NCBI GenBank assembly: GCA_039583875.1
Contig: CM077160.1
Span: 116,393,314-116,457,313, forward strand
Length of the DNA stretch: 64,000 bases
Reading direction: 5' to 3'
Origin: Platanthera guangdongensis
Taxonomy: Eukaryota > Streptophyta > Magnoliopsida > Asparagales > Orchidaceae
Shown one piece after another: positions 12,234 through 45,414 of this stretch (its first letter is position 1; each line of letters opens with the position of its first letter). The translations under genes were made by a program, and so were the position numbers. Below the pieces are notes generated by a model. That model searched no databases. It was given only the letters and a program-made list of their open reading frames with translations, and was not told where the DNA came from.

Positions 12234-12253
12234 AGTTAACTCCAATATGAGGG

Positions 12254-12517
12254 GGAGCAAGGAACTCCAGCGTGAGTACAGATGCAAGAACTGAGGGGGA
12301 GCAAAGGGCCAAACGCTACAGACCCCGATTTGCCGAAGCCGAAAAGGGGGAGATTACCCTCTCGGCTAAGGCTAAGGTGGCTCCAAGCTTGCTCCCAAGA
12401 AAATGGTATTGGTAAGGGATAACTCTCTCAACTCAATTTTACATTTATGGTTTTCATTCCCATTTGCTCTATTCACCTTAGCTTGTAGGGTTTAGGCTTC
12501 TTCAAATAGGGGGAGAT
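12254..12517 (+). other. Element B 3' untranslated region with repeated polypurine tracts
   Basis: Contains GAGGGGGAGCAA (twice, near 12248 and 12291), AAAAGGGGGAGATT (near 12342) and the terminal AAATAGGGGGAGAT (12504-12517) directly before the 3' LTR. Several polypurine-tract copies ahead of the 3' LTR are a described hallmark of Sireviruses. No ORF. Confidence 0.8.
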
Positions 12518-14146
12518 TGTTGGGTATTGTATCCACAATGTACCTGATTTGAAGAAGCCCCTGGACAAGCTAAGGTCAATAGACTATGTATTTGATAAAA
12601 TCTTTCTAGTTGTGATTGCAGTTTTTCCACGCTAAGTGCACACCAATGTCAGGGTGCAGTAGGTCAATATACACGGGTCTGCACGACGTAATCCCTCGTT
12701 GAGCAGATCAGTGTGTTGGCCTACGTGTACTCTCTCTATTGGAGTGCACTTATTTTCAAGCACAGGGCTGTAAACGTGCAGGAGCAGACAAGGAGCAAGG
12801 ATGGGTCAAGGAGCATCTCATAGGTGGAAAGACGAAAATTCGTCTAAGTTAGAATCGACGAGAATCACCAAGTGATTCTCGCCGATTCGGCGAGAATCAC
12901 TTGGGATTCTCGCCGATTCGTCGAGAATCAGAAGTTGATTCTCGCCGAACTCGATCCAGCAACTTCTAAGCAAGCACCTCTGCTTCTAAGTAAGAATCGA
13001 CGAGAATCACTGGTTGATTCTCGCCGTCTCGACCTGGCCTAAAGCAGTGCGTGCAACCAAGGCAAATTCGACGAGAATCATCTTTGATTCTCGCCGAATC
13101 GTCGAGAATCACCTTTGATTCTCGGCGACTCGGCGAGAATCACATTCGATTCTCACCGATTTTGACTTGGCGTTTTTCTGGAACTTGCTGAACCGGATTC
13201 TGCCGCTGTTAAATTTCTGGACCGGGATTTGGGGATTTCTATTGTGGGTCCCACAAACGGTCATATTGGAGTTAACTACAGTATTTATATACGGGTATTT
13301 TGAACGGAATACCTACACAGAAAGAAACCGAGCCGCGACGTAACCCTAAAACCGCGATTCCTCTCCGCCGCCGCCGTCACGCTCGGGAACGTTGGTCGCC
13401 GTCAACAATCGAGAATCCTTCGTGATCTCCGGCGACAGAAGCTTAGCAAAGCTCTGAGTCTCACGTGTCTATCCGGAGATCTCTTGTCTCTCGATTTGTT
13501 GACCGGGAAAAACTCCCCCGTCCGAATCGATCGAGACGACTGATCCTAGAGTGACCATTGGTAGACCTAGCTTGCTTCGCAACGAAGTTTGGATCTCCAA
13601 GTTCAGCAGTCGCTCATCATCATAGCCGCCGATCCCGAAGCTAGCCGCCGCTCGTGTTGCCGCCGCCGGTTCCGGGGAGATCCTCTCCAAGAGAGACCAA
13701 GGTTGTAGACTCTCCGTTGACTTCACGAACACGTCGTCGAACGAAGAGGAACACCGTAGTCTCCGAAAGAAGTTTGTATCTCGTATACATTCTATATTTA
13801 CTTTTGTTGTAAAGGAACTTTTGTTCCGTGTTGTAAGGGTTGGGTGCAACCCGTTTTGTGGGAGTGTTGACTCTCATGTGTGGAAGGGTTCCTTCCGGTA
13901 GTGCAGGGATTGGATTTCAATCCCGTTGGAGAAGTGACCGAGTCGTCCCTTGTTGGGGAGATAGGTCGAAGGGGGAAAGTGGACGTACCCAAGTCGGGGA
14001 ACCACTATAAATTGCCTGTGTATTCTGTGTGCTGTGCTTTTTATTTTTATTGTGCAGGTACATTCGTAAATTCCGCAAAAGCGCTACTCGTCACCTATTC
14101 CCCCCCCCCCCATAGGTGCACATAGCTGACACTAGGTGGACTTTCA
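12518..14146 (+). mobile_element. Element B 3' LTR
   Basis: 1629 bp, TGTTGGG...CTTTCA, right after the polypurine tract. Palindrome array at 12850-13165, TATA-like TATATA at 13286-13291, C-tract hairpin at 14092-14118 near the 3' end. ORFs inside it are LTR shadows. Confidence 0.9.
12850..13165. repeat. GATTCTCGNCGA palindrome array (family B U3)
   Basis: Arms GATTCTCGCCGA and TCGGCGAGAATC, joined by one A or T, form 25-nt odd palindromes; perfect or one-off copies recur here and, inverted, at 11890-12232, and in B' at 44765-45085. Each has several CpG sites. Confidence 0.9.
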
Positions 14147-15344: not shown

Positions 15345-15770
15345 TGCAGGATGTGGTTAGCGTTCAGTGGTCTCAATGCCACTCAACGCGGCATTGAGTG
15401 GTGTTGACACCACTCAAAGCCTTGACTTAAGATTGCTGGCAGCATTGAGTGGTGTGAACACCACTCAACACCTTAATTTTTCTGGCAGCGTTGAGTGGTG
15501 TCAACTCCACTCAACGCGGTGTTGAGTGGTGTCGACACCACTCAACACCCTGATTTTACTGGAAGCATTGAGTCGCGTCGTTGAGTGGTGTCGACACCAC
15601 TCAACGCCTTGCCTTAACTTTACTGGCAGCGTTGAGTGGTGTCAACACCACTCAACGCGACATTGAGTTGTGTCGATACCACTCAATGCCTTGACTTAAG
15701 GTTGTTGGTGGCATTGAGTGGTGTCAAAACCACTCAACGCGGCGTTGAGTGGTGTCAATACTCTCAATGC
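15345..15770. repeat. CACTCAACGC / GTTGAGTGGTGTC palindrome array
   Basis: About ten inverted units with arms GTTGAGTGGTGTC and GACACCACTCAAC. Two copies, 15521-15546 and 15580-15605, are perfect 26-bp palindromes; others differ by CpG-type changes (TCAACAC, TCGATAC). The centre of the perfect copies is GTGTCGACAC, the family A decamer. Confidence 0.9.
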
Positions 15771-22507: not shown

Positions 22508-22653
22508 TGTTGGGTACATTGGTTCTAAAGTACCTGATTTGAAGAAGCCTCACCCAACTCAATGATATACATCAAAATGTATTTGATGTATTTTGAGTTA
22601 CTTGTGCAGGTTAAGTATTTGCAGGAATGAAGAAGAAAAGTTTCTAAGTCCAT

Positions 22654-23513
22654 GTGTCGACACCCAGAGGGAAAGTGTCGACACTTAATAAGACATGTGT
22701 CGACACCCAGGCAAGCAGTGTCGACACTTGGAGTCATTGTGTCGACACCAGGGATGCTGAGTCGACACCAGACAGAAAGTGTCGACACAAGGAGCTGTGT
22801 CGACACTCAATGAAGAAAAGACAGTGAAGCAGTGTCGACACTTAACAGTTGTGTCGACACCCAGTGAAGCTGTGTCTACATCAGAAAGTGTCGACACTTG
22901 GAGCTGTGTCGACACTCAGCAAAAGTCAGCAGAAACTAAGGCCAAGTGTCGACACCCAGAACAATGTGTCAACACTCAGCAGAAGAGTCAACACTGGAAG
23001 TAAGTGTCGACATCCAAAACAATGTGTCGACACTTAGCTGAAGACTCAACACTTGAAGAAAGTGTCGACACAAGGAGATGTGTCGACACTTAGCAAAGAA
23101 CATCAAAGTTCAACAAAATATTCTAAGTACAAGTGTCGACACGATGAAGATGTGTAGACACTCAGCCAGAGACTTGACAGAAGAAGAATGTGTCGACACA
23201 AGGAGCTGTGTTGACACTTAACAAGTATCAACACTGAAGACATGTGTCGACACCAAGAAGATGTGTCGACACTTAACAGATTCAACTCATGAAGATGTGT
23301 CGACATAAAGTAGATGTGTTGACATTTAGAAGAATTCAGCAAAATACTGAAGTACAAGTACTTGTGTTGACACTCAATTTCAGTGTCGACACATGAAGAA
23401 GAAGTAGTGTCGAGATATAAAATCTACAACACAAGGAGTTGTGTCGACACCTTGTAGACTAGTGTCGACACTTAGACAACTTGTGTCGACACTTGGTCTA
23501 TAAGTGTCGACAC
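22654..23513. repeat. GTGTCGACAC palindrome array, 5' LTR
   Basis: I count about 24 exact copies of the 10-bp palindrome GTGTCGACAC, plus single-change variants (GTGTTGACAC, GTGTCAACAC, GTGTCGACAT), spaced mostly 15-45 bp. Spacers often read CACTTGGAGC, CACCCAG or CACAAGGAGCT. Confidence 0.95.
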
Positions 23514-23670
23514 TTAAAGACAGATAGTCTCGACACTTCTAGACAGTTACAGAATTTTCAAGAACTGACTGGATGACTTGACAGCTGCCATTCCAGTCGG
23601 TCTACTGCACCTGTCAAAGTTGTCAGAATTCAGTTATGGACCGGACCAGCCGATTACCATGAAGAAGGCC

Positions 23671-23680
23671 TATAAATAGG
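23671..23680 (+). promoter_or_regulatory. Family A LTR TATA box
   Basis: TATAAATAGG, about 160 bp after the last decamer. Conserved in the 3' LTR (37352-37360) and in the right-end LTR (63508-63517). Confidence 0.85.
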
Positions 23681-24123
23681 CTTACACTGTCTACAGAAAT
23701 TGAAGATTGATGAAGTGGTTCAAGTGATCATTCACAAGAGAAACACACAAGAAGATCTAGCTTTCAAGTGAAGATCTAAGAAGTTGGAGAGAGAGAGCTC
23801 CATCCAAGAAATCAGTTGTTGGAACCAGACTGAGAAGAAGGGTTCAGATTTATTCTGAATCTTAAGTAGCAGAGATCAAGGATCAACTGCAGAAGGAGTC
23901 AATCTTATTGAGTTCTACTTTCAAGAAGCTTTGAAGAAAGCTAAGTCAGATTGATTTCAGCTGAGTTCTTCCAAGAACTCATCAAGAAACTCACATCTCA
24001 TCTCTCAATTCTCTGAGTTGTTGAGTTAACATTATTGTATTCATTTTTATCTTGTAGGATCCTTTGGATCTGAGTCTTGTAAGCCTGTAATTATAAAGGT
24101 TGAGGGTAGGAGAGTTAATTCTC

Positions 24124-24220
24124 TGAGTGTAGGCCTTGGTGGCTGAGTGTAGGCCTTGGTGGCTGAGTGTAGGCCTTGGTGGCTGAGTGTAGGCCTTTGT
24201 GGCTGAGTGTAGGCTTTGTG
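24124..24220 (+). repeat. 20-bp tandem repeats in R-U5
   Basis: Between four and five copies of GAGTGTAGGCCTTGGTGGCT, the last degenerate; also present at 37801-37896 and beginning at 63927 in the partial LTR. Confidence 0.9.
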
Positions 24221-24498
24221 AAAAGCTGAGTTGTAGGGCCTTGGGCCTGAGGTGTAGGAGCCTGTTTTGGGTTCTGAGATAGTGCTGAAGTTTGGCCGAA
24301 TCTAGTACACTGCTAGATAGGCGAAGGGGGAAAGTGGATGTACCCAAAGCTTGGGGAACCACTATAAATCTCTGTGTCTACTGTGTGATGTGGTTTGCTG
24401 TGATTGCTGTGTGATTGCTATGTGATTGCTGTGCAATAGTAGCTTAAATTCTGTAATTATAAGTTGCATTCTGCCTTAAAAGTTAAAAAGATTCAAGT

Positions 24499-24523
24499 CA
24501 CCTATTCACCCCCCCTCTAGGTG
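24499..24523 (+). other. U5 C-tract hairpin
   Basis: CACCT and AGGTG arms around a C-rich loop, 20 bp before the LTR end. The same arrangement occurs in families B (14092-14118), C (15021-15043) and, with a mutated arm, B' (43808-43834). Confidence 0.7.
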
Positions 24524-24545
24524 TTTAGGTACTATATCTTTCAAG

Positions 24546-24557
24546 TGGTATCAGAGC
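24546..24557 (+). promoter_or_regulatory. Family A primer-binding site
   Basis: TGGTATCAGAGC two bases after the LTR end, an exact complement of the initiator tRNA-Met 3' end. Confidence 0.95.
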
Positions 24558-24646
24558 CAGGTTACTCAAAAAGGACTAACAGTCTGAGTAGATCCTGTTG
24601 GCAGATTCAGTCTAAGTGAATTACAGATTCAAGAAAATCAAGAACC

Positions 24647-26686
24647 ATGGGTTCCACTGAAAATCACAAGGAATTGGGATCCATGAAGCTACCCATATGT
24701 AAGAAGGAAATCTTTGGCATATGGAAGGAAAGGGTGAGGCTGTTTATGGAAGCCTCAGACCCTAGGATTTACATCACAGTAAAAGTAGGGCCATATATGC
24801 CCATGAAGGTTTCAGTCTTGGATGCCAATCAGAGAACACCTAAGGATTTCTCTGAGATGACAAAGGATGAAATTGTTCTAGCCACTATGGATAAGAAAGC
24901 TCATAACATCATAGTGAGTGCCATAGATGATGCAACTTTTCAGAATCTGATACACTGTAAGACAGCCAAAGAGATGTGGGAAACTTTTATTGTGTACATG
25001 GAGGGTTCTGAAGAAGTAAGGCAAGACAGAAAATCCTTGCTAAATCAAGAGTATGAAAGTTTTAGACAAGGAAAATCTGATAGCATAACTGAGTGCTATA
25101 AAAAGTTCTACAGGATAGTGAATGAGCTCATTTCCTATGACAGAGAGTTCAGTAATTATGAACTCAATGATAAGTTTCTAAGGTCCCTAACTAAAGATTG
25201 GGACACCAAGATCTGTGCCATTAGAGAAATGGCTAAGTTGGCAGAAATTCCTCCACCTACACTGTTTGGTAAACTGCTGTCTTATGAAATGCAGTTGACA
25301 GTGAGGAAAGAAGAGGAGATATTCACAAGAAGTGAACATAAAGAAAGGACAGTAGCCTTCAAGACAGAAGCCCCCAGAAAGTACATATGTAAGTCACCTT
25401 CTCCACCTCCAAAAGCAGCTGATTCTGAGTCAGATGAGTCAGTCAGCACAAAATCTGAAAGCAGTGAAAGTGATGAGGACTTTGCTGCCTTGACAAGACA
25501 TTTTCAGAAATTCTTAAAGAAGAAACAGTGGAGGACAAGGCCTTCTACATCACAGGGAAAGGAAGACTCTTATCAGAAAAAGAAGTCTTCAAAGAAAGAC
25601 AGGAAAAAGTCCAAGTCTAGCAAAGCTACACTATCAAAAATTGTGTGCTATTGCTGTAATAGACAAGGTCATGTGATAGCAGATTGTCCTGAGAAGAGAA
25701 AGGAGTCTAGTGACAAGAAAAGGACTCAATACAAGGGCAAGAAGGAGAAGTCTTTTGTTGCCAAAAAGGACAAGGGCCTGTCAGATATCTCTTCTTCAGA
25801 AACTGAGTCAGATGCTAAGGCATATATAGGGCTATTTGATGAAGAAGAAGAAGAAGAAGAGTTCATGCAAATTTTGAATTCTATATATGAACAAGAAGAC
25901 AGTCAGTGCCAAGGGCAAATGGCATTGACTGAAAGTGACAAAATCCTGGAACAGCCAGGACCTAGTAAGGTACAACATTGTTCTTCCAGTTCAGTTTCTT
26001 GTGCCAGTACAGAATCAGATTCATCTTCATCAAGTGATGAGAGTGTATCTGAGTCTGAAGAAGATATTCATCAGCTGATAGATGAATATAAAGTTCTGTT
26101 GCAAGCTTATAAGAAGAGCAAGTCCCTAGCCAAAAGTCAGGCAAAGGAAATTGCTAATCTCAAAGCTATGGCAACTGATTCTGAGAAATTGTTTGATCAA
26201 AAGCTAAATGAGATAGCCAGACTGAAGCACATAACTGTGATTCAGATGGGGACTATCACATATAAGAATGATCAAATCAAGAGTCTGGAGATTAATCTTT
26301 AGAAGGAGAGAGATCTAGTTACTAGATTTTCTAAACCTAAGTCAGTTCTACCTTTAATTGATGAATTTGTTCATCACAAAGGCAAGGCTGGACTGGGTTT
26401 TATTAAACCTGCAAGGACTGTCCAGTCCAAGTCCAAGGGCAAAGCCCCAACACTCAACAAGCCAGCTGTGGATAAAACAGCTAAGACTGTACCTAAGCAA
26501 AGGTACAATAAGTTTGAGTGTTGGTGTTGTGGCAAGATAGGCCACTTTGCAATGGACTGTTGGCACAATGCTAGTGCCAAAGTGAATAGCAAACTGCCTA
26601 TTGGAAAACCAGTAGGTAGCTTTGTCAAGATGCAAACTAACAAGTACCAAGGACCCAAAAATTCTTTGGGTTCTAAGGTTCATTAA
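24647..26686 (+). pseudogene. gag: Sirevirus gag of element A
   Basis: About 680 codons in one frame from ATG 24647, interrupted by TAG at 26300-26302 and ending at TAA 26684-26686. The N-terminal half is a UBN2-type capsid domain (FGIWKERVRLFMEA). It continues with a Ser/Glu/Lys-rich linker, knuckle 1 CYCCNRQGHVIADC (25646-25687), an acidic stretch, a coiled-coil-like Lys/Glu/Leu region, then knuckle 2 CWCCGKIGHFAMDC (26519-26560), which lies after the TAG. The ATG is chosen because it is the first in frame, about 90 bp after the PBS. Whether the TAG is decay or a readthrough point is open; the sequence both sides remains fully open. The partner pol is in the same frame. Confidence 0.88.
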
Positions 26687-29600
26687 TCTGTTTTGCAGGT
26701 GAGTCCAAGTTGCCATGCCCCAATATGGTACTTGGACAGTGGATGTTCCAGACATATGACTGGAACTAGGGGACTACTAAGGGACTACATTCCAATCAAA
26801 GATGGTCCAAAAGTCACCTTTGGTGGTTCTGAAAAAGGAATCATCAAAGGGTTTGGTAACATTTCTAGTAACTTAGTTACCATTACTCAAGTGGCTTATG
26901 TTAAAGGGTTGAAACACAACCTAATAAGTATAAGTCAATTAAGTGATGTAGGGTATGACATCTCATTTGTTAAGAAAGGTTGTCATATCAAGAGGTCAAC
27001 TGATCAAGAGATCATTTTGACAGGTTATAGAAAGAGGAATATCTACTGCCTAGACATTATGTGTGAGACCAATGGTTCTCAAGTGTGTCTTGTAGCAGAT
27101 GAGAAAGTCTCTCATTGTGTCAAATGGCACAAGAGGCTAGCTCATCTAAACTACAAGATAATTGGTAAACTCGTTAGCAAAGAGTTAGTGAGGAATGGTC
27201 CTCAAGTTAAGTGTGTTAAAGATGGTATTTGCTCAGCTTGTCAAAAGGGTAAGCAGACTAGATCCACCTTTAGAAGCATAGAAAACAAAGATGTTGTGAG
27301 GTGTTTATACCTCTTGCATATGGATCTCTTTGGTCCAATGCCAGTTCACAGCCTAGGTAGGAAGGTCTATACCTTTATAGTTGTAGATGACTACTCAAGG
27401 TTTTCCTGGGTGTTCTTCTTAAGACAGAAATCTGAAACACCTAGTGTCTTCTATAGCTTTGTCAAGCAAATTCAGAATGAACTAAATAGTACAGTGGTCA
27501 AAATAAGAAGTGACCATGGTACTGAATTTCAGTCTGATAGTATGACAAGACTATGTAAAGACTTTGGGATATTTCAAGAGTTTTCTTCACCAAGAACACC
27601 TCAGCAAAATGGCATTGCTGAGAGGAAGAATAGAACCTTGATTGAGGCTGGTAGGACCCTATTAAGTGATACATCACTACCAGAATATTTCTGGGCTGAA
27701 GTAGTTAATACTGCATGCCATGTTATTAATAGGGCTACCATTACTAAAGGCCTCAACAAGACCCCCTATGAGGTTATGAAAGGCAGGAAACCAAACCTAT
27801 CCTACTTCAGGATCTTTGGTTGTAAGTACTTCATACTTAACAATGGTAAGTCTTACTTGACCAAGTTTGCTGCCAAGTCGCAAGAGGGAATTTTTGTTGG
27901 GTACAGCAACAACAGTAAGGCTTATAGAGTCTACAACATGTCTACACAAGTTGTAGAAGAATCTGTACATGTAGTATTTGATGAGACTAAACTTATTAAC
28001 AATGAGTTGTCTAGTATTGTATGCAGCTCCACAGGTATAACAAAGAAGTTGGACAAGCTTACTATAGAAGAAGAACCTACTACAAGACAACAAGTAGAAG
28101 ATAGTGGCTGCTGTCTAGGGGGAGTACTACATGTACCTAGTGCAGAAGAAGTACAAGGAGTGCAGTAAGATGAAGGAACTGAAGAGGTTCAACCAGAAGT
28201 CAGGATGCCTCCAGCCAATAGGCATCTTAGAGATCATCCAGTAGAGCAGATTATTGGAGATCCAAGACAAGGGGTACAAACAAGGAGTAAAAATCTGAAT
28301 GCATCAATCTACTCCAGTTTTCTATCTCAAGTTGAACCAAAGAAGTTTGAAGAACCCATTCTAGATCCACAATGGACTGAAGTAATGCAAGAAGAGCTGA
28401 ATCAGTTCAAGAGGTGCAAGGTCTGGGAACTTGTTCCTAAACCTAAAGACCACAATATAATAGGAACCAAGTGGATCTACAGGAATAAGATGGATGAACA
28501 GGGAGTCATCATTAAGAATAAAGCAAGATTGGTTGCTAAAGGATATAGGCAAGAAGAAGGTATTGACTTTGATCAAACCTTTGCTCCAGTAGCCAGACTG
28601 GAAGCCATAAGGATGTTCCTGGCCTATGCAACCTTTCAAGGATTCAAAGTTTACCAAATGGATGTCAAGTCAGCATTTCTGAATGGTAATCTTAAAGAGG
28701 AAGTGTATGTGGAACATCCATCAGGTTTTGTTGATTCAACTTTACCTAATCATGTCTATAGACTTAGGAAAGCTTTATATGGGTTAAAGCAAGCCCCTAG
28801 GGCTTGGTATGAAACCCTATCTAGTTTCCTCATTGAGAACAAGTTCTCAAGGGGGAAAATAGATAAGACTCTATTCCTTAGGGAATCTAGAGGCAAAGTT
28901 ATACTAGTCCAAATATATGTAGATGACATTATATTTGGGTCTACTGAAAGTAGCCCTTGCAAAAAGTTTGCAAAACTAATGCAAAGTCAATTTGAGATGA
29001 GTAGTATGGGAGAGCTAAAGTCCTTCTTGGGTCTCCAAGTAAGACAGACTGAGAATGGATTATCCATATGCCAGTCCAAGTTCACCCTAGAACTCATAAG
29101 GAAGTATGGTATGGATTCATCCAGCACCATGAAGACTCCTATGGGGTCAAGTATGTCTCTTAGCAAGGATGATGCAGGGAAACCTGTGGATGAAACCTTG
29201 TATAGAGGGATAGTTGGCTCCCTATTATACTTGACTGCAAGTAGACCAGATATCATGTATGCTACATGTGTCTGTGCAAGGTATCAAGCCTGCCCTAAAG
29301 AGTCTTATTTGACAGTAGTCAAAAGAATATTAAGATATCTAAAGGGCACTCCTTATCTAGGCCTCTGGTACCCTAGGAATGGGGATTTTGATCTAACAAG
29401 TTATTCAGATGCAGACTTTACAGGATGCAAAGAAGATAGAAAAAGCACTACTGGAACCTGTCAATTCCTAGGTGGGAGACTAATTTCATGGAGTAGCAAA
29501 AAGCAAACAACTGTGGCTATCTCCACTGCAGAGTCAGAATATGTGGCTGCAGGAAGTTGCTGTGCTCAACTTCTATGGATACAACATCAGCTTGAGGACT

Positions 29601-29860
29601 ATGGAATTCAGGTAAGTAGAACTCCACTCTTTTGTGATTCTACTAGTGCTATTTCAATAGCCAATAATCCTGTATCCCATAGTAGAACAAAACATATTGA
29701 AATTAAATATCATTTTCTTAGGGAGCATGTAGAAAGAGAAGATATTTTACTTGAATATGTTAGAGCAGATAATCAACTAGCTGATATGTATACTAAGCCC
29801 CTAGAAGAGGCTAAGTTCAATAGATTTAAAATTGAACTAGGAATGATAAACTTAGAGTAA
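26687..29860 (+). pseudogene. pol: Sirevirus pol of element A (PR-IN-RT-RNase H)
   Basis: In the same frame as gag, open except for one TAA at 28166-28168 in the IN-RT linker. Protease motif DSGCSRHMTG (26735-26764); integrase with an HKRLAH...CSAC zinc finger, LHMDLFGP, IRSDHGTEF and the QQNGIAERKNR glutamate; RT with [11 protein letters not shown] and YVDD (28916-28927); RNase H with [17 protein letters not shown] and the terminal [13 protein letters not shown]. Order PR-IN-RT-RH defines Ty1/copia. There is no obvious start codon near 26687, so expression would need readthrough of the gag stop. Apart from the stop it looks full length. Confidence 0.92.
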
Positions 29861-29914
29861 GTTTACAGAATTGGAAATGGCTAAGTAAAAAGGTGTTGAC
29901 ACATAGAGATTTCT

Positions 29915-30221
29915 GTGTCGACACAGAAAGTAGGTGTCGACACTTCAGGAAAAATTTGTCGACACATCTAGGAAGTTGGTGTCAACACTTTAGAATATTA
30001 GTGTCGACACATGTCAAGTAGGTGTCGACACATCCAAAGTGGTGTCGACACTTAAGTTTTACTAAGAATTCTCTAAGTAAAGTCTCGACTACATGTCGAT
30101 TTGTGTGGTGTCGACACATAAACAAGTGACGACACATATAATCTGTTGACTAAACTTGTGTCGACACATATGTGTCGAGACATTATAAGTCAGTGTCGAC
30201 ACTTAATGCCAGTGTCGACAC
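29915..30221. repeat. Internal GTGTCGACAC array between pol and env-like ORF
   Basis: Nine exact decamers (first 29915-29924, last 30212-30221) plus variants such as GTGTTGACAC and GTGTCAACAC; a tenth exact copy lies in the ORF at 30329-30338. This is the LTR U3 repeat reused inside the element. Confidence 0.93.
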
Positions 30222-30266
30222 AATTTGAGTTAGCTGCCCGCCTTTTCATCTTCAAACCTAGAAAGG

Positions 30267-30275
30267 TATAAATAG
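30267..30275 (+). promoter_or_regulatory. Candidate internal TATA box for the env-like ORF
   Basis: TATAAATAG, 46 bp after the last upstream decamer and 22 bp before ATG 30298. It copies the LTR order (array, then TATAAATAG). Promoter function is inferred. Confidence 0.65.
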
Positions 30276-30297
30276 AATTTTACCTTAGTTTGTCGAC

Positions 30298-32472
30298 ATG
30301 CTTTCAAAGGTTTCGAGACCAAACTTCTGTGTCGACACCTCTCTTCTCTCAAGACAAATTCTTCGAACCCTAATGGAGCTAAAGCTTGAGGAGAATGTCA
30401 ATGAAGGGTATGAGCTGGTGCGCAATGCTTTTGATGATGCCGATCAAGAAATCAATACTGTAGTAACCCTAGTAGCAGACTCGGGGTTGGAATTTCTTGT
30501 TTCTGAGCCAACAAAAATCTGGAAAAAGGAAGTTCTGGAATTCCTCAATGGAGCTAAAGTCGACGAAACTGGATTGAAGATCAAATCCAGGGTTCATGGT
30601 GAGAAGGTGAAGGTATCACCTAAGGGCTTGAGGAAGATTCTACAGCTACCAAGAACTAAGGAAGAGGATGAAGTAACAGCTTCCAGGACCAGAGATGCAT
30701 TGGCATGGTGTGGTCTGGATTCTAAAATGAAAATAGGATCTGTGTTTAACAGAAAGGGCATGAATTGCCAAGGGAAATTTCTGTCTGAGATAGTTGGCAA
30801 AGTAATTCTCAGTAAGCCAGGAGGGCATGATAGGGTATCTGCCTCTATGTTCAGCATTATGACCAGGATTATCTTCACTCTGAACACTGACTGGTCTGTT
30901 ATAGTGTTTGAAAAGATAAAGGAAAGCTTGAAGAAGCCCAATCTGGGCAGGATCATAAGTCTATACCTAGCTGGTACCATACCAGAGGTTATGCAACAAG
31001 CTGCAGGAAGCAAAATCAATCACATGAGAAAAATGTATATGAGAATTTTCTCCAGATGGGACAGGGTGTTGTCTAAAGAGATGCCAACCCCTGAGAAGAT
31101 AATTCCGGAGAAAGTATCACCACCAAAGAAGAAGAGGAAAACTGCTCCAGTGGCTCAAGTGTCCACTAGCAGCTCTAACAGTGAAGAACGAGTTGTCTTC
31201 ACACCAGATAAGAATGAGGAAGGAACTGCTGTCAAGTCTCCTGCTCCTCAAGATGTTGCTGAGATCCAGGGGGAGCTACCTCAAGCTTGCCCTATACACA
31301 AGGATCAAATCCAGAGGGAGCATCTAGTTGTAGAAGAACCAACTACACTAGAGAGTGAGCAAGCTACAAACATCATCCTAGAGGTAATCACTGAACTAAA
31401 TACTTTAGATTTTCCTATAGAGGATACTGATTTGTCTGATGTTCATCAGCAAATTCAGCTGGAGAGCCAAGTCCCAGATGTTGTCATGGAAGACACATCT
31501 GTTGAAGTTGTAGTTACTGATCTAGTGGTTGAAGAGCCAAGACTTTCTCCAGCTCATTCACCCCAAGAGTATACAATGGAAGATTTATTTCTAAATCTGG
31601 ATCAACAAGACTTTGACAAGGACAATTCTACTGCTGAGGGAGAAAATGCTCCAGTTGAGGGGGAGCAAGTTGTAATTCTTGAAGAGCCTGCAAGAAAAGA
31701 AACTGAGAAGGCACCAGATGTGCAGACTGAGAGGCCCCCAAGCCCTAAGGAGAGGGTAGAAATTGCCAGCTCCTCAGCATCTGAAGATGAGGAGGCTGCA
31801 AGGGCAAAGAAACAGAAAATTTATGTATTCAAGAGAAGGAGTCAGAGTTATAAGAATGCCTTACAATCTACTGCACCACAGCCTATATCACTGCCAGCAC
31901 CAACTGTTGACTATAGTGCACTGATGGTTGCTATACAGATTAAACTGGATGAACACAGGAAGGCCATTGAGAAATATGTGGATGAATGGCAGAAATCACT
32001 ACAGTTTGATCTTGCCCAGGACATAAAGTCAATAAGATTTGAGATGAATCTTAACAAGAAGGAGATGACTGAATGTTTCCACAAGGGTGGCAATGCAGTG
32101 GTGTACTTGGCTACACACCAGGAGAAGATAAAAGCACAAGTGGATGACATAGCTGTGAAGCAAGGTTATGTTTTTGAAAATCAGATAAGAATGAATGACA
32201 ACCTTACTGCATCTCACAATGCAATAGTCACAGAACTGAAGAATCTAGCTGCAGGGCAGACTCCAGCTATAGCAAAGGCAGATTTTGACAAAGTATTCCT
32301 AGAAGAAATCACTGCTCTTAAGACTGCTATCCAAGATTCTCAAAAGTTGATAACTGACAAACTCCAAAGGTTAAAACCTTTCTTTAAAGATGGAGTCAAT
32401 TATTTGGATAATCAAGTGAGATTTCAAAAAGATGATGTGAGAGATCTGATGGTTAAAACTCCAAAATTATTT
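30298..32472 (+). pseudogene. Sirevirus env-like (post-pol) ORF of element A, first part
   Basis: About 725 open codons before insertion X cuts the ORF. Sireviruses carry an extra gene here that is called env-like by position; its function is unknown. The N-terminal third is globular (a KVKVSPKGLRKILQL stretch and a GRIISLYLAGTIPEVM stretch); PPKKKRK at 31120-31140 matches the SV40-type nuclear localisation motif; the middle is acidic and Pro-rich; the C-terminal third is Lys/Glu-rich and likely coiled coil. I see no signal peptide or strong membrane segment. If the internal TATA works, transcription would start near 30298, so ATG 30373 may be the real start. The homologous remnant in B' supports it as a real lineage gene. 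Confidence 0.85.
32468..32472 (+). repeat. Target-site duplication of X, left copy
   Basis: TATTT, repeated at 35119-35123. Counting it once keeps the env-like frame open across the insertion. Confidence 0.7.
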
Positions 32473-33760
32473 GCGGTCACGCGGCGACCCGGCGGTTTTA
32501 TTTGAGAAAAAGGCGGAAGTGAATTTATTTAAGAAAACGGGGCGCGCGTATTTATTTTGTTTATTTTGGATATAAAAAAGGTTTAGAAATCGAGTTTTAA
32601 TGAAAGGAGGCAAGTGCACCTATCGTGAGTAGTACAAGATATTCCGGGTGGAATATCGAGGTCGTATTGTTCTCGGGTCCGGTTCGATTATTTCTACTCT
32701 TCCCTGGAGGGGACTATTATTTTACCGATAATCATCTTGTCGGGATATTTTATATAAAAATACAGAAAATGGCGGAAAGAAAATGAAAGCAATAAAAAGA
32801 AAGCTTGAAGGTGGTGCCGATGAAGAGCTTAGCTCGATGGCACCGAAAAAACAATTGAACTAAAATAGACTTTAATAAAAAGAGCTCCTAAATTTCTAAT
32901 TAATTAAGGCGGAGACTTGGCCGTGGAGGTTCCACTAAAATGAGCTCACCTAGCTATAGGGCTATCGCTCACCTGAACGCTAAGACTATTCGACCGGGCT
33001 CTCGTCCGACGAAGGATTCCTCTTAACGCCCGCATTACGCTAAGAACCCCGCTATTGGGTGGGGAACCCAATCCGGTAGAGTTGGCGCGCCTCCTCTCTC
33101 GAGGGTTAGTGCGGAACTCTCTTTGCCAAGGGGTGATCTGTCCATACGCACGGCCTCTCGACGAGCGTATGGAAAACGGAAATAGGGCCCACACATCGAT
33201 ATGTGGTCCTACGCGTCGTTAACCCCGGGCAAACCTTAAGTGCTATTAATTAATTAGAAAAATACGACCTTTAATTATTTTAAGCTATTTTATCTGTCCC
33301 AATGCTCTTCGATACCGAGGGCTAAGAACTGTTAGCCACTCATCGGAATGGGGACGGCTTGCGGGAAAAGCAGAAAAGAAAGCAGAAAAAGAAAGCAGTA
33401 AATGAAAGCAGTAAAATGAAAGCAGTAAAGGAAAGCTGTAAATTGCGAGTCCCGGCGCAAACGCGTGGGCGGGAGAAAGAAAGCGGTAAAACGCACACAC
33501 GCAAATCCTACTCAAATGAGTAGGGGAAAATAAATGTGGGTCCTACTCAACCGAGTAGGACAAAATAAATGCAACGCACGCACACACTCTCTCGACATAA
33601 ATGAAAACACACGCACTCTACTGAAATGAAAACACACGCACACACACGACAGAATTGAAATAAAGCAAAGCGCCATTTAACTCTTAACGAGTAGGCGGAA
33701 ATAAATGCGCACACATAAAAAATTGCAAAAAACTAAGTTACCGAAAAAAATAAAACAACT

Positions 33761-34030
33761 GCATTTCTACCGCTAAAATGCGGTAGAAATGCATAAAAAG
33801 CGAAAATAAAAATTAAATGAGCGAAAAAAGTTTGCAAATAAACGCAAAATGCAAGTGCTCGAAAAATTAAAACGAATACATTTCTACTGCTAAAATGCGG
33901 TAGAAATGCGTAAAAAGAGAACGGAAAAATTAAACGGACAAAAGGTTTGACAATAAAATTGAAAATGCAAGTGTTCGAAAAAGCAAAATAACAACTTATC
34001 CATTCTTATAATTCTATAAAAATGCCTAAA
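33761..34030. repeat. Diverged 125-bp tandem repeats with a 13-bp-arm hairpin
   Basis: Arms GCATTTCTACCGC (33761-33773) and GCGGTAGAAATGC (33780-33792) are exact reverse complements around TAAAAT. A second copy with one arm change is near 33880-33910 and a decayed third near 34000. Confidence 0.75.
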
Positions 34031-34509
34031 AAGTGGAAGAAAAGTTAAAAGCATGAAAAGTTTTACAAAAATAACGAAAAAAACGACTAAGTAAGAAAAA
34101 TCAAAACCACCTTTTAATCATTTTTATATTTTCATAAGGATGAACAAGAACGGAAAAACTAAACTATGAAGATAATGAAAACAATAAAACTAATTTAAAC
34201 TCATACACACACACACACATGTAAAGAAGAACAAAAAAAAACTAAGTTAAAACAAGGAAGAAAGATAAGATTGCATAGGGGAGATTTGCATTAATCCATT
34301 CCAAAGTCATGTTGAGAGAAGAAAATAAAACACATTTTATTAAAAAGAAGTACGACTTACAAAGATACGAAAATAAAACTAAGGAGAGGGGGAGAAATTA
34401 TCCCTTACATAAGCCTTGGAAGCATTTCGGCAGCACAACCCTATACAAAATGGTGCCCAAAAGGGGAACAGGAATTCAGAGCAGAACCTCTGAATTTATA
34501 GAAAAAATT

Positions 34510-34970
34510 TTCATGGGTCACGCCCTTGGTCACGGGCGTGACAGGGGGCGTGACAGTACTATTTGGAAGGCGGCCGGCGATTTGACGGGAAAGTTGACTT
34601 CGGCCTGGACACGTGTCGGTCTCGCAGAGGTCACGCCCTTGGTCACGGGCGTGACAGGGGGCGTGACAGGCAGGTGGATCTGGGCGCGGTGCGCCAAAAA
34701 GTCGCCGCGCGGGTCTTGTCGGGCTAGCTGGAAAGGTCACGCCCCAGGTCACGGGCGTGACTCTGGGCGTGACAGGCGGGTGTCGACACTCGACGAATGT
34801 CGAGATGAAATCGTCGAGTGGAGTGTCACGGGCTTGGGTCACGGGCGTGACTCGGGTGACACGGGCGTGACAGGCTTTGAACTTCAGAAAATTGCTGATT
34901 TCACGGCTTTTGACGTGTCACGCCCTGGTCACGGGCGTGACCCATTTGTCACGGGCGTGACATGTCAAAT
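34510..34970. repeat. GTCACGCCC / GGGCGTGAC inverted repeat cluster in X
   Basis: More than ten copies of GGGCGTGAC and several GTCACGCCC, alternating so neighbours can pair. One exact GTGTCGACAC lies in the cluster at 34780-34789. Confidence 0.85.
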
Positions 34971-35123
34971 TTTGGCAGATTTTTGATTTTTTCTGAAAAA
35001 TAAAATAAACAAAGTTAGTATAATATTTACAAAAATAGGAGCATTTTATTGAATAAAAATAAGTAAAAACGACAAAAATAAATGAAAACAACTAAATAAA
35101 TGTACACAAAAATAGGTATATTT

Positions 35124-35891
35124 ACAATTCATCAAGATCACATAGAAAGAGAAGTCATAAAGGGGGAGAGGGTTTTTATCAAAGCCAGCTCTGATCATGC
35201 CAAGTGGATATAAAATTCTATCAGAGCAACTCTTGGATACCCTCCTCTTTGTGATGATGATAATGTTGCTGAATCTGGAATTCATCTTGCATATCTAGGA
35301 GGGGAGCAACCAGAAGTGGCTCAAGTCATCTACCCTCCTCCAGATTTTGACATGATTCATGCTGACATACAGTCCATGTATAGCCCACCTGGGGGTAAGG
35401 ACAATGTAATTATTGAAAACATTGTTCAGCCAATTTCTGAAGCTATGCAAGAGGCACTGCAAAAAGAAGAAGAGACAAGATTCTCTAAGAAGAGGTTTAG
35501 GGAACAAGTTGAACAAAGACCAGACTTTGAGCAGTGGAGCCCTACCTCAAGAAATATTATTTTGACTACCTGGAAAGCTGCCAAAGATAACATTCAAGAC
35601 AGGAATAAGTGGTTTTCTGAAACTGAATGGAGGAAACATGAGTCAAGGCCGGAGGCCATAGTTCAATATAGAAGGAAGGCCAAGATGGTAAAGCTACCTC
35701 CTACTGCCCAGGAGCCTAGCAAGTACTTTCCAAAGCCATATCATTATTTTGAAAGGCAGAAGATTAAGGCTGAGGAACTTAAGAAGAAAGATCTGAAAGG
35801 CAAGAAGCCTGCTGATGCTGAAGTTCCTAAAGCTCCTGTTCAAGCCAGAGTTCAAGCTGGAAAAGGAATAGTGATCAAGGAGCCTGAATAG
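35124..35891 (+). pseudogene. Sirevirus env-like ORF of element A, last part
   Basis: Continues the frame of 30298-32472 after insertion X: open from 35124 except TAA at 35211-35213, ending at TAG 35889-35891. It is rich in charged residues and Pro; a YPPPDFDMIH stretch opens the clear part and a Lys-rich tail (KAEELKKKDLKGKK) closes it. No membrane segment is seen. Without X and the single stop the whole ORF would be close to 1,000 codons. Confidence 0.8.
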
Positions 35892-36174
35892 AAATAGACT
35901 TAGAATTTTCTTAAAGTTTACTATGTAATCTTTTTGATGTAAAACATTCTGTAAACTTTTGAAAATGAATATGACAAAGTATTGGAACAATGTGTTGTGT
36001 GATAAATTAGCTATGTGTTAAATTTATTTCATAATTGTTCTGAGATGTTATCTGTATTTGCATGTTTGCTTTATACATGTGATGTACTTTCCTGTTTTCA
36101 TAATCCTGTCTTACATCATTTTGTATTTTTATTATAAATGGTGTATATCATTGACTAAGGGTTATGACTTCTCC
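35892..36174 (+). other. Element A 3' untranslated region
   Basis: AT-rich, non-coding, between the env-like stop and the polypurine tract. No repeats stand out. Confidence 0.7.
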
Positions 36175-36188
36175 AAATAGGGGGAGAT
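36175..36188 (+). promoter_or_regulatory. Element A polypurine tract
   Basis: AAATAGGGGGAGAT directly before the 3' LTR, identical in core to element B at 12504-12517; primes plus-strand DNA synthesis. Confidence 0.9.
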
Positions 36189-38234
36189 TGTTGGGTACAT
36201 TGGTTCTAATGTACCTGATTTGAAGAAGCCTCACGCAACTCAATGATATACATCAAAATGTATTTGATGTATTTTGAGCTACTTGTGCAGGTTAAGTATT
36301 TGCAGGAATGAAGAAGAAAAGTTTCTAAGTCCATGTGTCGACACCCAGAGGGAAAGTGTCGACACTTAAGAAGACATGTGTCGACACCCAGGCAAGCAGT
36401 GTCGACACTTGGAGTCATTGTGTCGACACCAGGGATGCTGAGTCGACACCAGACAGAAAGTGTCGACACAAGGAGCTGTGTCGACACTCAATGAAGAAAA
36501 GCCAGTGAAGCAGTATCGATACTTAACAGTTGTGTCGACACCCAGTGAAGCTGTGTCTACATCAGAAAGTGTCGACACTTGGAGCTGTGTCGACACTCAG
36601 CAAAAGTCAGCAGAAACTAAGGCCAAGTGTCGACACCCAGAATAATGTGTCGACACTCAGCAGAAGAGTCAACACTGGAAGTAAGTGTCGACATCCAAAA
36701 CAATGTGTCGACACTTAGCTGAAGACTCAACACTTGAAGAAAGTGTCGACACAAGGAGCTGTGTCGACACTTAGCAAAGAACATCAAAGTTCAACAAAAT
36801 ATTCTAAGTACAAGTGTCGACACGATGAAGATGTGTCGACACTCAGCCAAAGACTTGACAGAAGAAGAATGTGTCGACACAAGGAGCTGTGTCGACACTT
36901 AACAAGTATCATCACTGAAGACATGTGTCGACACCAAGAAGCTGTGTCGACACTTAACAGATTCAGCACATGAAGATGTGTCGACACAAAGGAGATGTGT
37001 CGACATTTAGAAGAATTCAGCAAAATACTAAAGTACAAGTACTTGTGTCGACACTCAATTTCAGTGTCGACACATGAAGAAGAAGTAGTGTCGAGATATA
37101 AAATCTACAACACAAGGAGTTGTGTCGACACCTTGTAGACTAGTGTCGACACTTAGACAACTTGTGTCGACACTTGGTCTATAAGTGTCGACACTTAAAG
37201 ACAGATAGTCTCGACACTTCTAGACAGTTACAGAATTTTCAAGAACTGACTGGATGACTTGACAGCTGCCATTCCAGCCGGTCTACTGCACCTGTCAGAG
37301 TTGTCAGAATTCAGTTATGGACCGAACCAGCCGATTACCATGAAGAAGGCCTATAAATAGGCTTACACTGTCTACAGAAATTGAAGATTGATGAAGTGGT
37401 TCAAGTGATCATTCACAAGAGAAACACACAGAAGATCTAGCTTTCAAGTGAAGATCTAAAAGTTGGAGAGAGAGAGCTCCATCCAAGAAATCAGTTGTTG
37501 GAACCAGACTGAGAAGAAGGTTCAGATTTATTCTGAATCTAAGTAGCAGAGATCAAGGATCAACTGCAGACGGAGTCAATCTTATTGAGTTCTACTTTCA
37601 AGAAGCTTTGAAGAAAGCTAAGTCAGATTGATTTCAGCTGAGTTCTTCCAAGAACTCATCAAGAAACTCACATCTCATCTCTCTATTCTCTAAGTTGTTG
37701 AGTTAACATTATTGTATTCATTTTTATCTTGTAGGATCCTTTGGATCTGAGTCTTGTAAGCCTGTAATTATAAAGGCTGAGGGTACGAGAGTTAATTCTC
37801 TGAGTGTAGGCCTTGGTGGCTGAGTGTAGGCCTTGGTGGCTGAGTGTAGGCCTTGGTGGCTGAGTGTAGGCCTTTGTGGCTGAGTGTAGGCTTTGTGAAA
37901 AGCTGAGTTGTAGGGCCTTGGGCCTGAGGTGTAGGAGCCTATTTTGGGTTCTGAGATAGTGCTGAAGTTTGGCCGAATCTAGTACACTGCTAGATAGGAG
38001 AAGGGGGAAAGTGGATGTACCCAAAGCTTGGGGAACCACTATAAATCTCTGTGTCTACTGTGTGATGTGGTTTGCTGTGATTGTTGTGTGATTACTGTGT
38101 GATTACTGTGTGATTGCTGTGCAATAGTAGCTTAAATTCTGTAATTATAAGTTGCATTCTGCCTTAAAAGTTAAAAAAATTCAAGTCACCTATTCACCCC
38201 CCCCCCTCTAGGTGTTTAGGTACTATATCTTTCA
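36189..38234 (+). mobile_element. Family A 3' LTR
   Basis: 2046 bp, same order of parts as the 5' LTR. I count about 28 exact GTGTCGACAC copies from 36335 to 37194, more than in the 5' LTR. TATA box TATAAATAG at 37352-37360. Confidence 0.95.
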
Positions 38235-40081: not shown

Positions 40082-40915
40082 CAAGCAGTCTCCAGTACAG
40101 TGTCACTTTCTTCTTGAATTTCGGCCACAGCATCCCTGGCCACCTGGGCGATTTCAGATACTACATCCGTATGAGGGGGTAGAGGCTCCCCCTCGATTCC
40201 TGCAGTCAAGGTATCAGGAAATTTCACCGGGGGTGACTGCTGGAGATACTTCCTGTTGCTCTTCCACTGCAGTCTGCCCAATACGCCTCTCCCATCGATC
40301 AAACACACTTGAGTCCTCTTCTTCAGGTAGTGGAGAGGGACACCTTTACTCATGTCGAATTTGTCTCCATTTAGCTGGTTTAGATATAGACTTAAGATGC
40401 GGCCAAAACTTGGAGAGCCAAGGTGTCCTTGATCTTCTCGAACAACAACTCCCCCAGTTAAACCTCTTGCGGCAGACGACAGCTATAGGATCTTGAACAT
40501 ATCCCCTGAGATATGGTCATGAGAGCCCGGCTTGCAGATGAGCACCTTCCATAATATCAGACAGGAGCTTCCCTTCTTCATTCATATCCTTTCTCTTTAT
40601 TGACGAGTTCCTCGTGGGAGACCGCAGAATAAGAGAGTTCTGGTTTTGTCATCGTCCTCCAAATAGTCCTCATGCTCCGAGCAAGAAAGCTGCAGGAAGC
40701 GAGTCAGCTTGCTGGCAGACAGCTTGACCTTTACCCCAGCCACCTTGCTTTTGATTACGGAGTCGCCATTTCGGAGTCTTGCGGTAGCGAAGAACTACAG
40801 ACCTCTTTGTCCAGGATTTTGCAAGGGTGCTCCAGGACGAATGTTAGCCCAGCCTCTTCCAACATCAGAATAATGTTGCGGAATTCATCCGAGGCGTGAG
40901 AGAACCCAGTCCAAA
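40082..40915 (-). pseudogene. Env-like ORF remnant of element B'
   Basis: Minus-strand reading in shifting frames matches the first third of the family A env-like ORF in order: a LTFVLEHPCKILDKEV block (A: LEFLVSEPTKIWKKEV), a KVKLSASKLTRFLQL block (A: KVKVSPKGLRKILQL), a GKLLSDIM and GLS block (A: GKFLSEIVGK) and an FEKIKDTL block (A: FEKIKESL). Many stops and frameshifts. It shows that the post-pol ORF is shared between Sirevirus families. Its far end is in the gap. Confidence 0.7.
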
Positions 40916-42170
40916 CAAGCTTGAACTGTGACCAACCCAGCAGTTGTCCTTGGGGTCATTGCAGATCTAGAGGAGAAACCCTACTCTAAGCGTTAATGAA
41001 CATTCAAAAAGAAAGCGTCACTAGTGAGAGCGTCCAAGTACGGGTGAGGAAGAGGTTACCTAAGGGCTTATACGGAAGTGAGTTGGTGAGCTTCCTGCGA
41101 GAAACTCTTCCTCGAGCGTCTTTGGGAAGACCTTCGGTGGATAGGAGAGTTTCCTGCGGGGTTCGGCCTTGCTAGAACCTTGCGAGAACCTTCTCGATTT
41201 TGACGATGGACCTTGCGAGAACCTTGCGGTCACAGAGACACTTCGCGATTCGACGAGAAACCTTGCGAGAACTTACTGGAAGAAGATGGAGAGCCGGATT
41301 CGTGTAGCGATGAGCTTCCTGCAGGGTTCGGCGGGAATCAACGAGAGTTTGCGAAGGTGGTGCGACGAGCTTCCTGCGGGTCTCTGCGAGTCGGCGGGAG
41401 AGCTCCTGTGGGTTTCGGCAAGTCTGCGGGTTTCGGCGAGTCGGCAGAAGACCTCTTGCGGGATATCTGCTGCGACGTGAGGCGGGATTCGTGAAGAAGG
41501 CGAAGGGTCGGCGTGATTTGTCTAATTCGGCGAGATTTCAAGTATATAATGGGTCGGCGGGATTTGTCTGATTCGAAATTGAGAGGTTTCTTGACTAGGA
41601 ATTTTCACGTTGAGACACATTGCAACATTTTTGAATTCTTCTGATGTCAAGTCAATATAAAAAATGATAGATACATGTATATTTTAAAGTCAATCTATTT
41701 GGATTTGAATGAGGCTTTTCCAAAAACTTTTTGATGTCAATTGTGAGTTGTCGAGATTCACGATGACATATCTTCGTTAACTCTTTATTGATGTATAAAG
41801 GTTTGCATGCATCGAGTTAACCTATCCTTAGAGGTGCCCACATACATGTATAAGCATAAGTATAAATATACACATGGATAGAAATATATATATATATATA
41901 TTTTTTAAATGAGGATGGAATATGACGCAAGTCCTTGAACTGATCAAGATTACCTGGGATTTTGAGAGTCATCGTCTTAGTCCCACAGGTAGAACACATT
42001 AGAGGCTCAATGTGAGTATGCTCAAATAGATATCACATCTGTTATTGCAGACGCTTGTTCCAATGTAGTCTTGAGCCACCTACTGTCTAGGTCCCATTTT
42101 ATTCACGGGAACCTAGACTACCCTGCAAGAAAGAATTACTTTACCTTAGGAACCCAAATCATATTGGGTC
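40916..42170 (-). other. B' region between gag and env-like remnants, no pol
   Basis: No protease, integrase, RT or RNase H motif in any frame. 41090-41580 carries CTTGCGAGAACC, GAACCTTCTCG and TTCGGCGAG words related to the family B LTR palindromes; a TATA-like element (minus ATTATATAC, about 41543-41551) is nearby. A TA run lies at 41885-41900. So the B' env-like part, like that of A, has LTR-type repeats upstream. Confidence 0.55.
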
Positions 42171-43779: not shown

Positions 43780-45414
43780 TGAAAGTCCACCTAGTGTCAA
43801 CTATGTGCACCTATGGGGGGGGGGGGAATATGTGACGAGTAGCGCTTTTGCGGAATTTACGAATGTACCTGCACAATAAAAATAAAAAGCACAGCACACA
43901 GAATCACAGGCAATTTATAGTGGTTCCCCGACTTGGGTACATCCACTTTCCCCCTTCGACCTATCTCCCAACAAGGGACGACTCGGTCTCTTCTCCAACA
44001 GGATTGAAATCCAATCCCTGCACTATCGGAAGGAACCCTTCCACACGTGAGAGTCAACACTCCCACAAAACGGGTTGCACCCAACCCTTACAATACGGAA
44101 CAAAAGTTCCTTTATAAACAAAAGTAAATATAGAATGTACACGAGATACAAACTTCGTTTGGGACTACGGTGTTCCTCTTCGTTCGACGACGTGTTCGTG
44201 AAGTCAACGAAGAGTCTACAACCTTGGTCTCTCTTGGAGAGGATCTCCCCGGAAACGGCGGCGGCAACACGAGCGGCGGCTAGCTTCGGGATCGGCGGCT
44301 ATGATGATGAGCGGTGCTGAACTTGGAGATCCAAACTTCGTAGCGATGCTAGCTAGGTCTCCAACGGTCACTCAAGGATCGGTCGTCTCGATCGATTCGG
44401 ATGGGGAACACTTTCCCGATCTACAAATCGAGAGACAAGAGATCTCTAGATAGACGCGTGAGACTCTAAGCTTGGCTAAGCTTCTGTCGCCGGAGATCGG
44501 GAAGAGACGCGCAATCACGCGGCGACCACTTGACGCGAGCGGCGGCGGCGGAGCGGAGAGGAAGCGGGGATCTAGGGTTTGTCCGTGCTCGCGTATCTCT
44601 GGTTTTCTTCGCCCTCTACTGTTCAAAAATACCCCTGTATTTATACATTGAAGACCCATACAATATGACCGTTGTGGGTCCCACAAGTAGAAACCCGAAA
44701 TCCGGTTCAAACTAGTCCAGCGGCATAATCCGGTCCAGCAGCATCCCGAGAAATCGCTAAGTGAAAATCGACGAGAATCGCAGGTGATTCTCGACGAATC
44801 GGCGAGAATCATCAAGTGATTCTCGACGATTCGTCGAGAATCGCTAGTGATTCTCGCCGAATCACTTATTGATTCTCAGCGATTTTCACATGGTATTCAT
44901 GAGCTGCTTAACCACTGGTTCGGCGAGAATCACTAGTGATTCTCGCCGAATCTTACTTGGCACCGTTTTGAGGTAGCCAGAAGGGGTCGGCGAGAATCAC
45001 TAATGATTCTCGTCGATTCGGCGAGAATCACTAGTGATTCTCGCCGAATCGGCGAGAATCACTTGGTGATTCTCGTCGAATTTTTCTTGGACGAATTTTC
45101 GTCTTCCACCCAGGAGCTGCTCCTTGACCCATCCATGCTACTTGTCTTCTCTTGCATATGAACGGCCCTGTACTTGAAAGTAAGTGCACTCCAATAGAGA
45201 GAGTACACGTAGGCCAACACACTGATCTGCTCAACGAGGGATTACGTCTTGCAGACCCGTGTATATTGACCTACTGCACCCTGACATTGGTGTGCACTTA
45301 GCGTGGAGAAGCTGCAAGTACAACTTAAGATGTTTCATCAAATACATTGTGAATTCATCTTAGCTTGACAGGTGACTTCCTCAAATCCAGGTAATTGTGG
45401 ATACAATACCAACA
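43780..45414 (-). mobile_element. Element B' 5' LTR
   Basis: 1635 bp on the minus strand, TGTTGGTATTGTATCC...CTTTCA, same family as B. Palindromes GATTCTCGNCGA at 44765-45085, minus-strand TATA (TATAAATAC) at 44637-44645, C-tract hairpin 43808-43834. AGTAG (45415-45419) would be one target-site copy. Confidence 0.9.
44765..45085. repeat. GATTCTCGNCGA palindrome array of B'
   Basis: At least nine inverted units with arms GATTCTCGNCGA and TCGNCGAGAATC, like family B. Confidence 0.9.

Follow-up and report, generated by a model that had tools for sequence, protein, structure and literature searches.

A conserved box array and TATA box between pol and the post-pol reading frame of a Platanthera Sirevirus form a probable internal promoter

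How Sireviruses express a separate, env-like gene placed behind pol was unsettled in 2010 (PMC2829016), and the same question is raised by a locus of the orchid Platanthera guangdongensis. Within the window (the whole 64-kb stretch of DNA that was analysed, 64,000 nucleotides) a Sirevirus carries a row of palindromic boxes and a TATA box between pol and its post-pol open reading frame (ORF). The original prediction for this segment was that a promoter module of the LTR type is reused inside the element and gives the post-pol ORF a transcript of its own. In 13 Sireviruses Bousios et al. 2010 described palindromic boxes, which nine of the elements (Osr9, Osr10, HOPIE, Barbara, Inga, Usier, Vitis, Citrus and Sorghum) carry additionally upstream of ENV. 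CpG islands were reported for the LTRs and for the region round the ENV 5' end, and a TATA box for the LTRs; an internal promoter was suggested there and not conclusively identified (PMC2829016; what is taken here and below from this paper and from PMC3414828, PMC5311732 and PMC10760457 refers to the available portions of each).

The class of the element was read from its termini and its domains. The LTR/PBS junction at 24539-24557 reads TTTCA/AGTGG/TATCAGAGC, in agreement with the Sirevirus form CA/A(T or G)TGG/TATCAGAGC, and positions 36179-36190 at the 3' LTR read AGGGGGAG AT TG, in agreement with the PPT rule of AGGGGGAG followed by AT/TG (both rules from PMC2829016). Extra PPT-like copies, AGGGGGA(G/A), were found at 31268, 31658 and 35161 in ORF sequence and at 34387 in a nested insertion; for Sireviruses, additional PPT copies are described in the linker, mostly past ENV (PMC2829016). 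The polyC-rich integrase signal of Sireviruses is present near the 3' end of the LTR (CACCCCCCCTCTAGGTG), and profile searches identified Ty1/copia domains (Retrotran_gag_2, E = 3.7e-19; RVT_2, 1.2e-76; rve, 9.8e-16), with a zinc knuckle match (zf-CCHC) of only 0.015, under its cut-off. The 5' and 3' LTRs are 97.4% identical. A third LTR of the family, 89% identical and truncated by the window end, occupies 62344-64000 and has an array and TATA box of its own. The window copy is damaged, its post-pol ORF being broken by the nested insertion, and we count this against a promoter reading. The stretch 32506-36187, which holds most of that insertion, contains 143 CpG, and a lone box at 34780 that sits in the insertion was left out of the counts. 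Two scans of viral contigs found no relatives.

Direct reading bore out the predicted layout: nine exact copies of GTGTCGACAC (starting at 29915, 29934, 30001, 30022, 30042, 30108, 30158, 30193 and 30212) are followed by TATAAATAG and then by the ORF, with a tenth exact box downstream of the TATA box at 30329. The window holds 92 exact GTGTCGACAC boxes vs 0.06 expected (100 dinucleotide shuffles) and eight copies of TATAAATAG vs 0.51 expected; TATAAATA arose by chance in 164 of 20,000 mononucleotide shuffles of the 151 bp past the last box (30222-30372). Genome-wide (4.25 Gb), the spaced pair box-N12-box occurred 114,390 times and the reversed pair not once. Spacings between boxes cluster at 18-23 bp, but the phase vector was modest (R 0.39-0.58 over the periods tried) and helical phasing is not claimed. 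The box shares GTCGAC with the Vitis box and lacks the CGG-CCG core signature of the Sirevirus RM box, to which the Tnd-1 box is another exception (PMC2829016). Among the literature matches listed for the letters of GTGTCGACAC, no title indicated a plant-retroelement context. The window also contains tandem palindromes of a related but distinct box, GAGTGGTGTC(G/A)ACACCACTC, in other DNA at 15359-15770, and arrays of another palindrome (CGAGAATCAC..GTGATTCTCG type) flank the element on both sides (11868-13159 and 44766-45081).

The order of array and then TATA box is the same in the LTRs, again as predicted (TATA at 23671, 37352 and 63508), with a gap from the last exact box to the TATA box of 157 bp in the 5' LTR (box ending at 23513) vs 45 bp internally. 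That the module is a copied LTR promoter was rejected: the box-masked linker scored 23 against the 5' LTR where shuffled spacers scored 21.9 ± 2.4, and 34 of 100 shuffled spacers matched the LTR as well as the linker did. Since the masked linker is no closer to the LTR than shuffled spacers are, only box and TATA are common to both. On our best reading, the internal promoter shares the boxes of the LTR and is not a copied LTR piece.

The frame of the post-pol ORF is open from 30289 to 32505 and has in-frame ATGs at 30298 and 30373. A protein search identified seven ORF homologues, all from Platanthera, among the 7,990 scored candidates sharing most words, and the Platanthera homologues P0004, P0005, P0008 and P0009 begin at ATG 30373; together with the conservation of this codon in other copies (Table 1), this supports its proposed role as the working start. 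Plant core promoters initiate about 25-35 bp from the first T of the TATA box, and ATG 30298 sits where transcription would be expected to begin. This upstream ATG falls in a degenerate box that reads CAT in the window and CAC in most of 29 copies. Between TATA+28 and the ORF start, 60 of the 66 other copies having TATAAATA contain no other ATG. The pyrimidine run and AG in the predicted leader are also 3' splice site-like, a point to which we return below.

Whether the encoded protein is an 'envelope' is doubtful because a simple hydropathy scan found no transmembrane segment: the best 19-residue Kyte-Doolittle mean, by this crude test, was 1.21 in the ORF part read, 1.27 in P0004 and 1.28 in P0005 (first 700 residues of each homologue). 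PF20167 (putative plant transposon protein), which is annotated in the database for P0004 and P0005, matched the ORF at E 0.0041 and 17.5 bits against a cut-off of 45. Another env-like stretch, a distant one with 27% identity to P0004, lies at 40318-40794 (minus strand) and 41180-41600, and the CpG-rich region upstream of it is without the box of the window element.

Table 1. Coordinates, within the window, of the Sirevirus and of the features bearing on its predicted internal promoter.
Feature	Position	Strand	Remarks
Sirevirus (Ty1/copia) element	22508..38234	+	target duplication GCTGT, 5 bp; ends, PBS and PPT read directly
5' LTR	22508..24543	+	exact boxes 22654-23513; TATA 23671-23679
pol stop codon TAA	29858..29860	+	TAA in 68/69 other copies
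CpG-retaining region (about -500 to +200 of ORF ATG)	29870..30573	+	in boxes throughout; outside boxes mainly -300 to -100 and 0 to +200
Internal array, 14 GTGTCGACAC-type boxes (at most 1 mismatch; nine exact)	29893..30221	+	first box at 29893; array in 69/69 other copies
Internal TATA box TATAAATAG	30267..30275	+	exact in 64/69 other copies; 98% identity in 7 divergent copies
Predicted transcription start zone	30292..30302	+	25-35 bp from first T of TATA; expected from plant core-promoter spacing
Predicted 5' leader	30303..30372	+	exact box 30329; pyrimidine run 30339-30350; AG 30352-30353
Post-pol (env-like) ORF, first part up to nested insertion	30373..32446	+	ATG in 69/69 other copies; Platanthera homologues begin here
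Nested insertion	32447..35134	+	TG..CA ends, AGATC either side; splits post-pol ORF of window copy
Remainder of post-pol protein, matching stretch	35133..35882	+	tblastn of P0004, 62% identity
3' LTR	36189..38234	+	exact boxes 36335-37194; TATA 37352-37360

Conservation was assessed in a family that is large: two overlapping whole-genome searches, one with 213 residues of the ORF start and one with the Platanthera zijinensis protein P0008, returned 99,609 and 109,651 first-look candidates; 150 of the former and 101 of the latter were scored. From the first search we studied 69 of the 149 scored non-window copies (29 from the top of the ranking, the 20 after them and the 20 at its bottom), which were anchored on ORF similarity and not on the linker; they are related copies rather than 69 independent tests, and the depth reached in all is about three sublineages of one genome. 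Copies without the array or the TATA box, which would have told against the prediction, were looked for among them, and the outcome did not refute it. The array was present in 69/69, with 5-15 exact boxes per copy (median 12), and the TATA box read TATAAATAG in 64, TATAAATAA in two, TATAAAAAG in two and CATAAATAG in one. Spacing was nearly fixed in the 66 copies having TATAAATA (44-46 bp from the last box to the TATA box; 105-108 bp from the TATA box to the ATG). Diversity across the 69 copies was 0.032 in boxes vs 0.104 in spacers, and 0.016 in the TATA box vs 0.086 before it and 0.080 after it; the leader (0.051), the first 88 bp of the ORF (0.112) and the pol end (0.063) give the surrounding scale. 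Counting against a promoter reading, several 9-mers vary less than the TATA box (30245-30256, around 30074, around 30300 and the pyrimidine run at 30339).

The same layout was seen directly in other sublineages. Twenty loci of one contig (C1) were drawn from the box-pair list, and thus chosen by boxes and not by TATA. In 11 of these pol adjoins the array, and TATAAATAG was found in 10 of the 11, with a box-to-TATA gap of 45-47 bp and a TATA-to-ATG distance of 104-110 bp; in the remaining nine, the stretch read showed no adjoining pol, and these were left out of the counts. The one pol-adjacent array without it (L078) has other DNA behind the array, with TATA box and ORF absent, which we count against a promoter reading. 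One divergent copy, L085, has the same layout at only 43% identity in the ORF and 80% in pol. Two loci, L082 and L093, carry GTGTCGACAC in dense arrays built of roughly 35-bp units, have no neighbouring pol and seemingly belong to another family.

A second sublineage was sampled at fifteen of the places listed with P0008 as query (55-75% identical to P0008, which is itself 55% identical to the window protein). Although its linkers are only 57-63% identical to that of the window, arrays were present in 15/15 (6-16 boxes per copy, at most one mismatch), and the TATA box read TATAAATA in 14 and TATAAATT in one. The box-to-TATA gap was 47 bp in 13 of 14 scored copies and 66 bp in the other (L102), and the TATA box lay 100-112 bp before the ATG. 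When seven divergent copies were compared with the window, the TATA box was 98% identical vs 57% for the 44 bp before it and 32% for the 14 bp after it, and boxes were 79% vs spacers 44% identical. The P. zijinensis gene model P0007 has GINR at the aligned place, which fits GGTATAAATAGA, although a protein cannot prove the DNA letters.

The segment is also set apart by its CpG content. Across 29 copies, CpG observed/expected, taken in 100-bp bins, was 0.00-0.04 throughout -1400 to -500 relative to the ORF ATG (pol and its end), 0.89-1.34 from -500 to +100, and 0.49 to +200. Over ORF positions +200 to +2000 it was again 0.00-0.04 per bin, with 0.11 in the bin after that. With boxes masked, the values were 0.00 and 0.03 at -500 to -300, 1.37 and 0.63 at -300 to -100, 0.02 at -100 to 0, 0.99 at 0 to +100 and 0.49 at +100 to +200. 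Much of the array, the core promoter and the leader therefore hold CpG in boxes only, and the first 200 bp of the ORF retain CpG without boxes; retention is patchy, because it is near 0 in core promoter and leader outside the boxes, and this counts against a promoter reading. A synonymous transition could remove 195 of the 222 CpGs found in the first 201 bp of the ORF; in the 201 bp that follow, there are 0.10 CpG per copy. Among eight C1 copies, TpG+CpA reached 0.96 of expectation at 0 to +200 vs 1.05-1.48 in most other bins (one pol bin was lower still, 0.88 at -1600), and 0.7-3.5 CpG per 200 bp were found deeper in the ORF.

L084 displays the same retention pattern, and the second sublineage has no CpG in 110 bp of pol (15/15) and 2-7 CpG in the first 70 bp of the ORF. 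Retention is weak inside the ORF of L085 (two CpGs in the first 200 bp), a further count against the promoter. The LTR CpGs of the window are located in boxes and directly before the TATA box. CpG loss in gag and pol of the window copy (24544-29860) is almost complete, with only two CpG in 5.3 kb. We infer that the overall pattern reflects selection on the boxes together with a region partly shielded from methylation-driven decay, as would be expected round a promoter.

The main rival to an internal promoter is splicing. A transcript begun in the LTR would be spliced at a 3' site in the leader to express the post-pol ORF, a route predicted for BAGY-2 and Athila, and array and TATA box would have some other role; a mixture of both routes is also conceivable. 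A pyrimidine run and then AG precede the ATG in 84 of 86 copies (68/69, 15/15 of the second sublineage, and L084), a pattern broken by L085, which has no AG between run and ATG; such a run is also usual in plant 5' leaders, and this tells against splicing. A second candidate acceptor adjoins the TATA box, with AAAG at 30262-30265 in 69/69 copies and AG within the last 5 bp in 14 of 17 others. A strong donor, CAG/GTAAGT (29609-29617, a perfect 5' splice-site consensus), lies in the RNase H region, and gene model P0007 joins the equivalent of this site to the TATA site, but the pol fusion frame there is open in only 2 of 69 copies. The leader of the LTR transcript (23700-24660 of the window copy) offers no 5' splice site scoring at least 8 of 9. 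Splicing, moreover, leaves the conserved TATA box and the fixed box-TATA spacing unexplained, and we judge it an unlikely route.

We also considered that the array might be an RNA or chromatin feature, forming hairpins in the genomic RNA or serving as a target of small RNAs or silencing, rather than a promoter. The 488-nt array stretch folds far better than its shuffles (z -9.9), which counts against a promoter reading, though any row of palindromes would do so, and small-RNA hotspots coincide with palindrome clusters in maize Sirevirus LTRs (PMC5311732, PMC10760457). Such a role leaves unexplained both a conserved TATA box at fixed spacing and the retention of CpG past the boxes, in the initial 200 bp of the ORF, since a silenced target should lose CpG; with the same boxes preceding the TATA box in the LTR, we give this alternative very little weight. 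Less credible again is a functionless segment, acquired so recently that array and TATA box merely seem conserved and the CpGs have not yet decayed: retention limited to one segment would suit a young insert, but the layout persists where identity has fallen to 44% in spacers and to 43% in the ORF (L085), and boxes and TATA box vary far less than spacers within the segment. Stop-codon readthrough or recoding of pol, as reported for SIRE1 (PMC2829016, PMC3414828), was rejected as practically excluded, because the two genes of the window copy are 512 bp apart and the linkers of 69/69 other copies have stops in every frame, with minima of 4, 5 and 2.

We therefore favour, at a probability of roughly three in four, the reading that 29893-30372 is an internal RNA polymerase II promoter of the Sirevirus that uses ATG 30373 and gives a separate post-pol mRNA, an estimate drawn from sequence: the conserved array, TATA box and ATG, the second sublineage, the divergent copy and the retained CpGs. 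A putative host protein would bind the palindromic GTGTCGACAC and be recruited to the LTR array and the internal array alike. The internal TATA box (30267) would then direct a separate mRNA starting at about 30292-30302, with 30373 as its first useful ATG, so that neither readthrough nor splicing would be needed to make the post-pol ORF. On this reading the region would also carry little CG methylation in the transposing lineage.

The general notion that ENV is preceded by RM boxes and possibly by an internal promoter dates from 2010 (PMC2829016), and the present element is a variant of the arrangement described there, to which we add a TATA box at fixed spacing, a start codon and a CpG pattern. 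As in those Sireviruses, one type of palindromic box stands before the LTR TATA box and again, CpG-rich, between pol and ENV. Unlike the RM boxes of that account, GTGTCGACAC is without the CGG-CCG signature; a TATA box at fixed distance before the ORF is identified in the window family, and CpG is almost absent elsewhere in the element (comparison with the available part of PMC2829016). SIRE1 of soybean is likewise a Sirevirus with a post-pol ORF, but has one stop codon between pol and ORF and uses stop suppression (PMC2829016), whereas the window element has a 512-bp linker with stops in all frames. In a 2012 paper that shares authors with the 2010 study, an internal promoter is named as one of the mechanisms resolved by that time; the three papers cited deal, by their titles, with stop suppression in SIRE1, with envelope-class elements that are transcribed and spliced, and with Athila4/Calypso (PMC3414828); given this listing, the question of post-pol expression may be less open than it is put here. 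By titles and the beginnings of abstracts, in literature made up mostly of papers free of subscription, we found no report of such an internal promoter. Foamy viruses (Spumaretrovirinae), which are unrelated elements, also have a second transcription start inside a retroelement with an LTR promoter, the start in the window being a predicted one. The foamy virus internal promoter lies within env and drives accessory genes.

In the window family, the fixed spacing of the TATA box, the matching array, the scarcity of other ATGs in the leader and the CpG retention all indicate a single site and a single start codon for post-pol expression. More tentatively, and at well below even odds, the family may represent a two-promoter retrotransposon in which the internal promoter escapes most CG methylation in the transposing lineage, CpG having been purged from all other parts of the element. 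The host factor that acts on the LTR could then also switch on the post-pol gene, without dependence on the LTR itself and even where the LTR of a copy is silenced.
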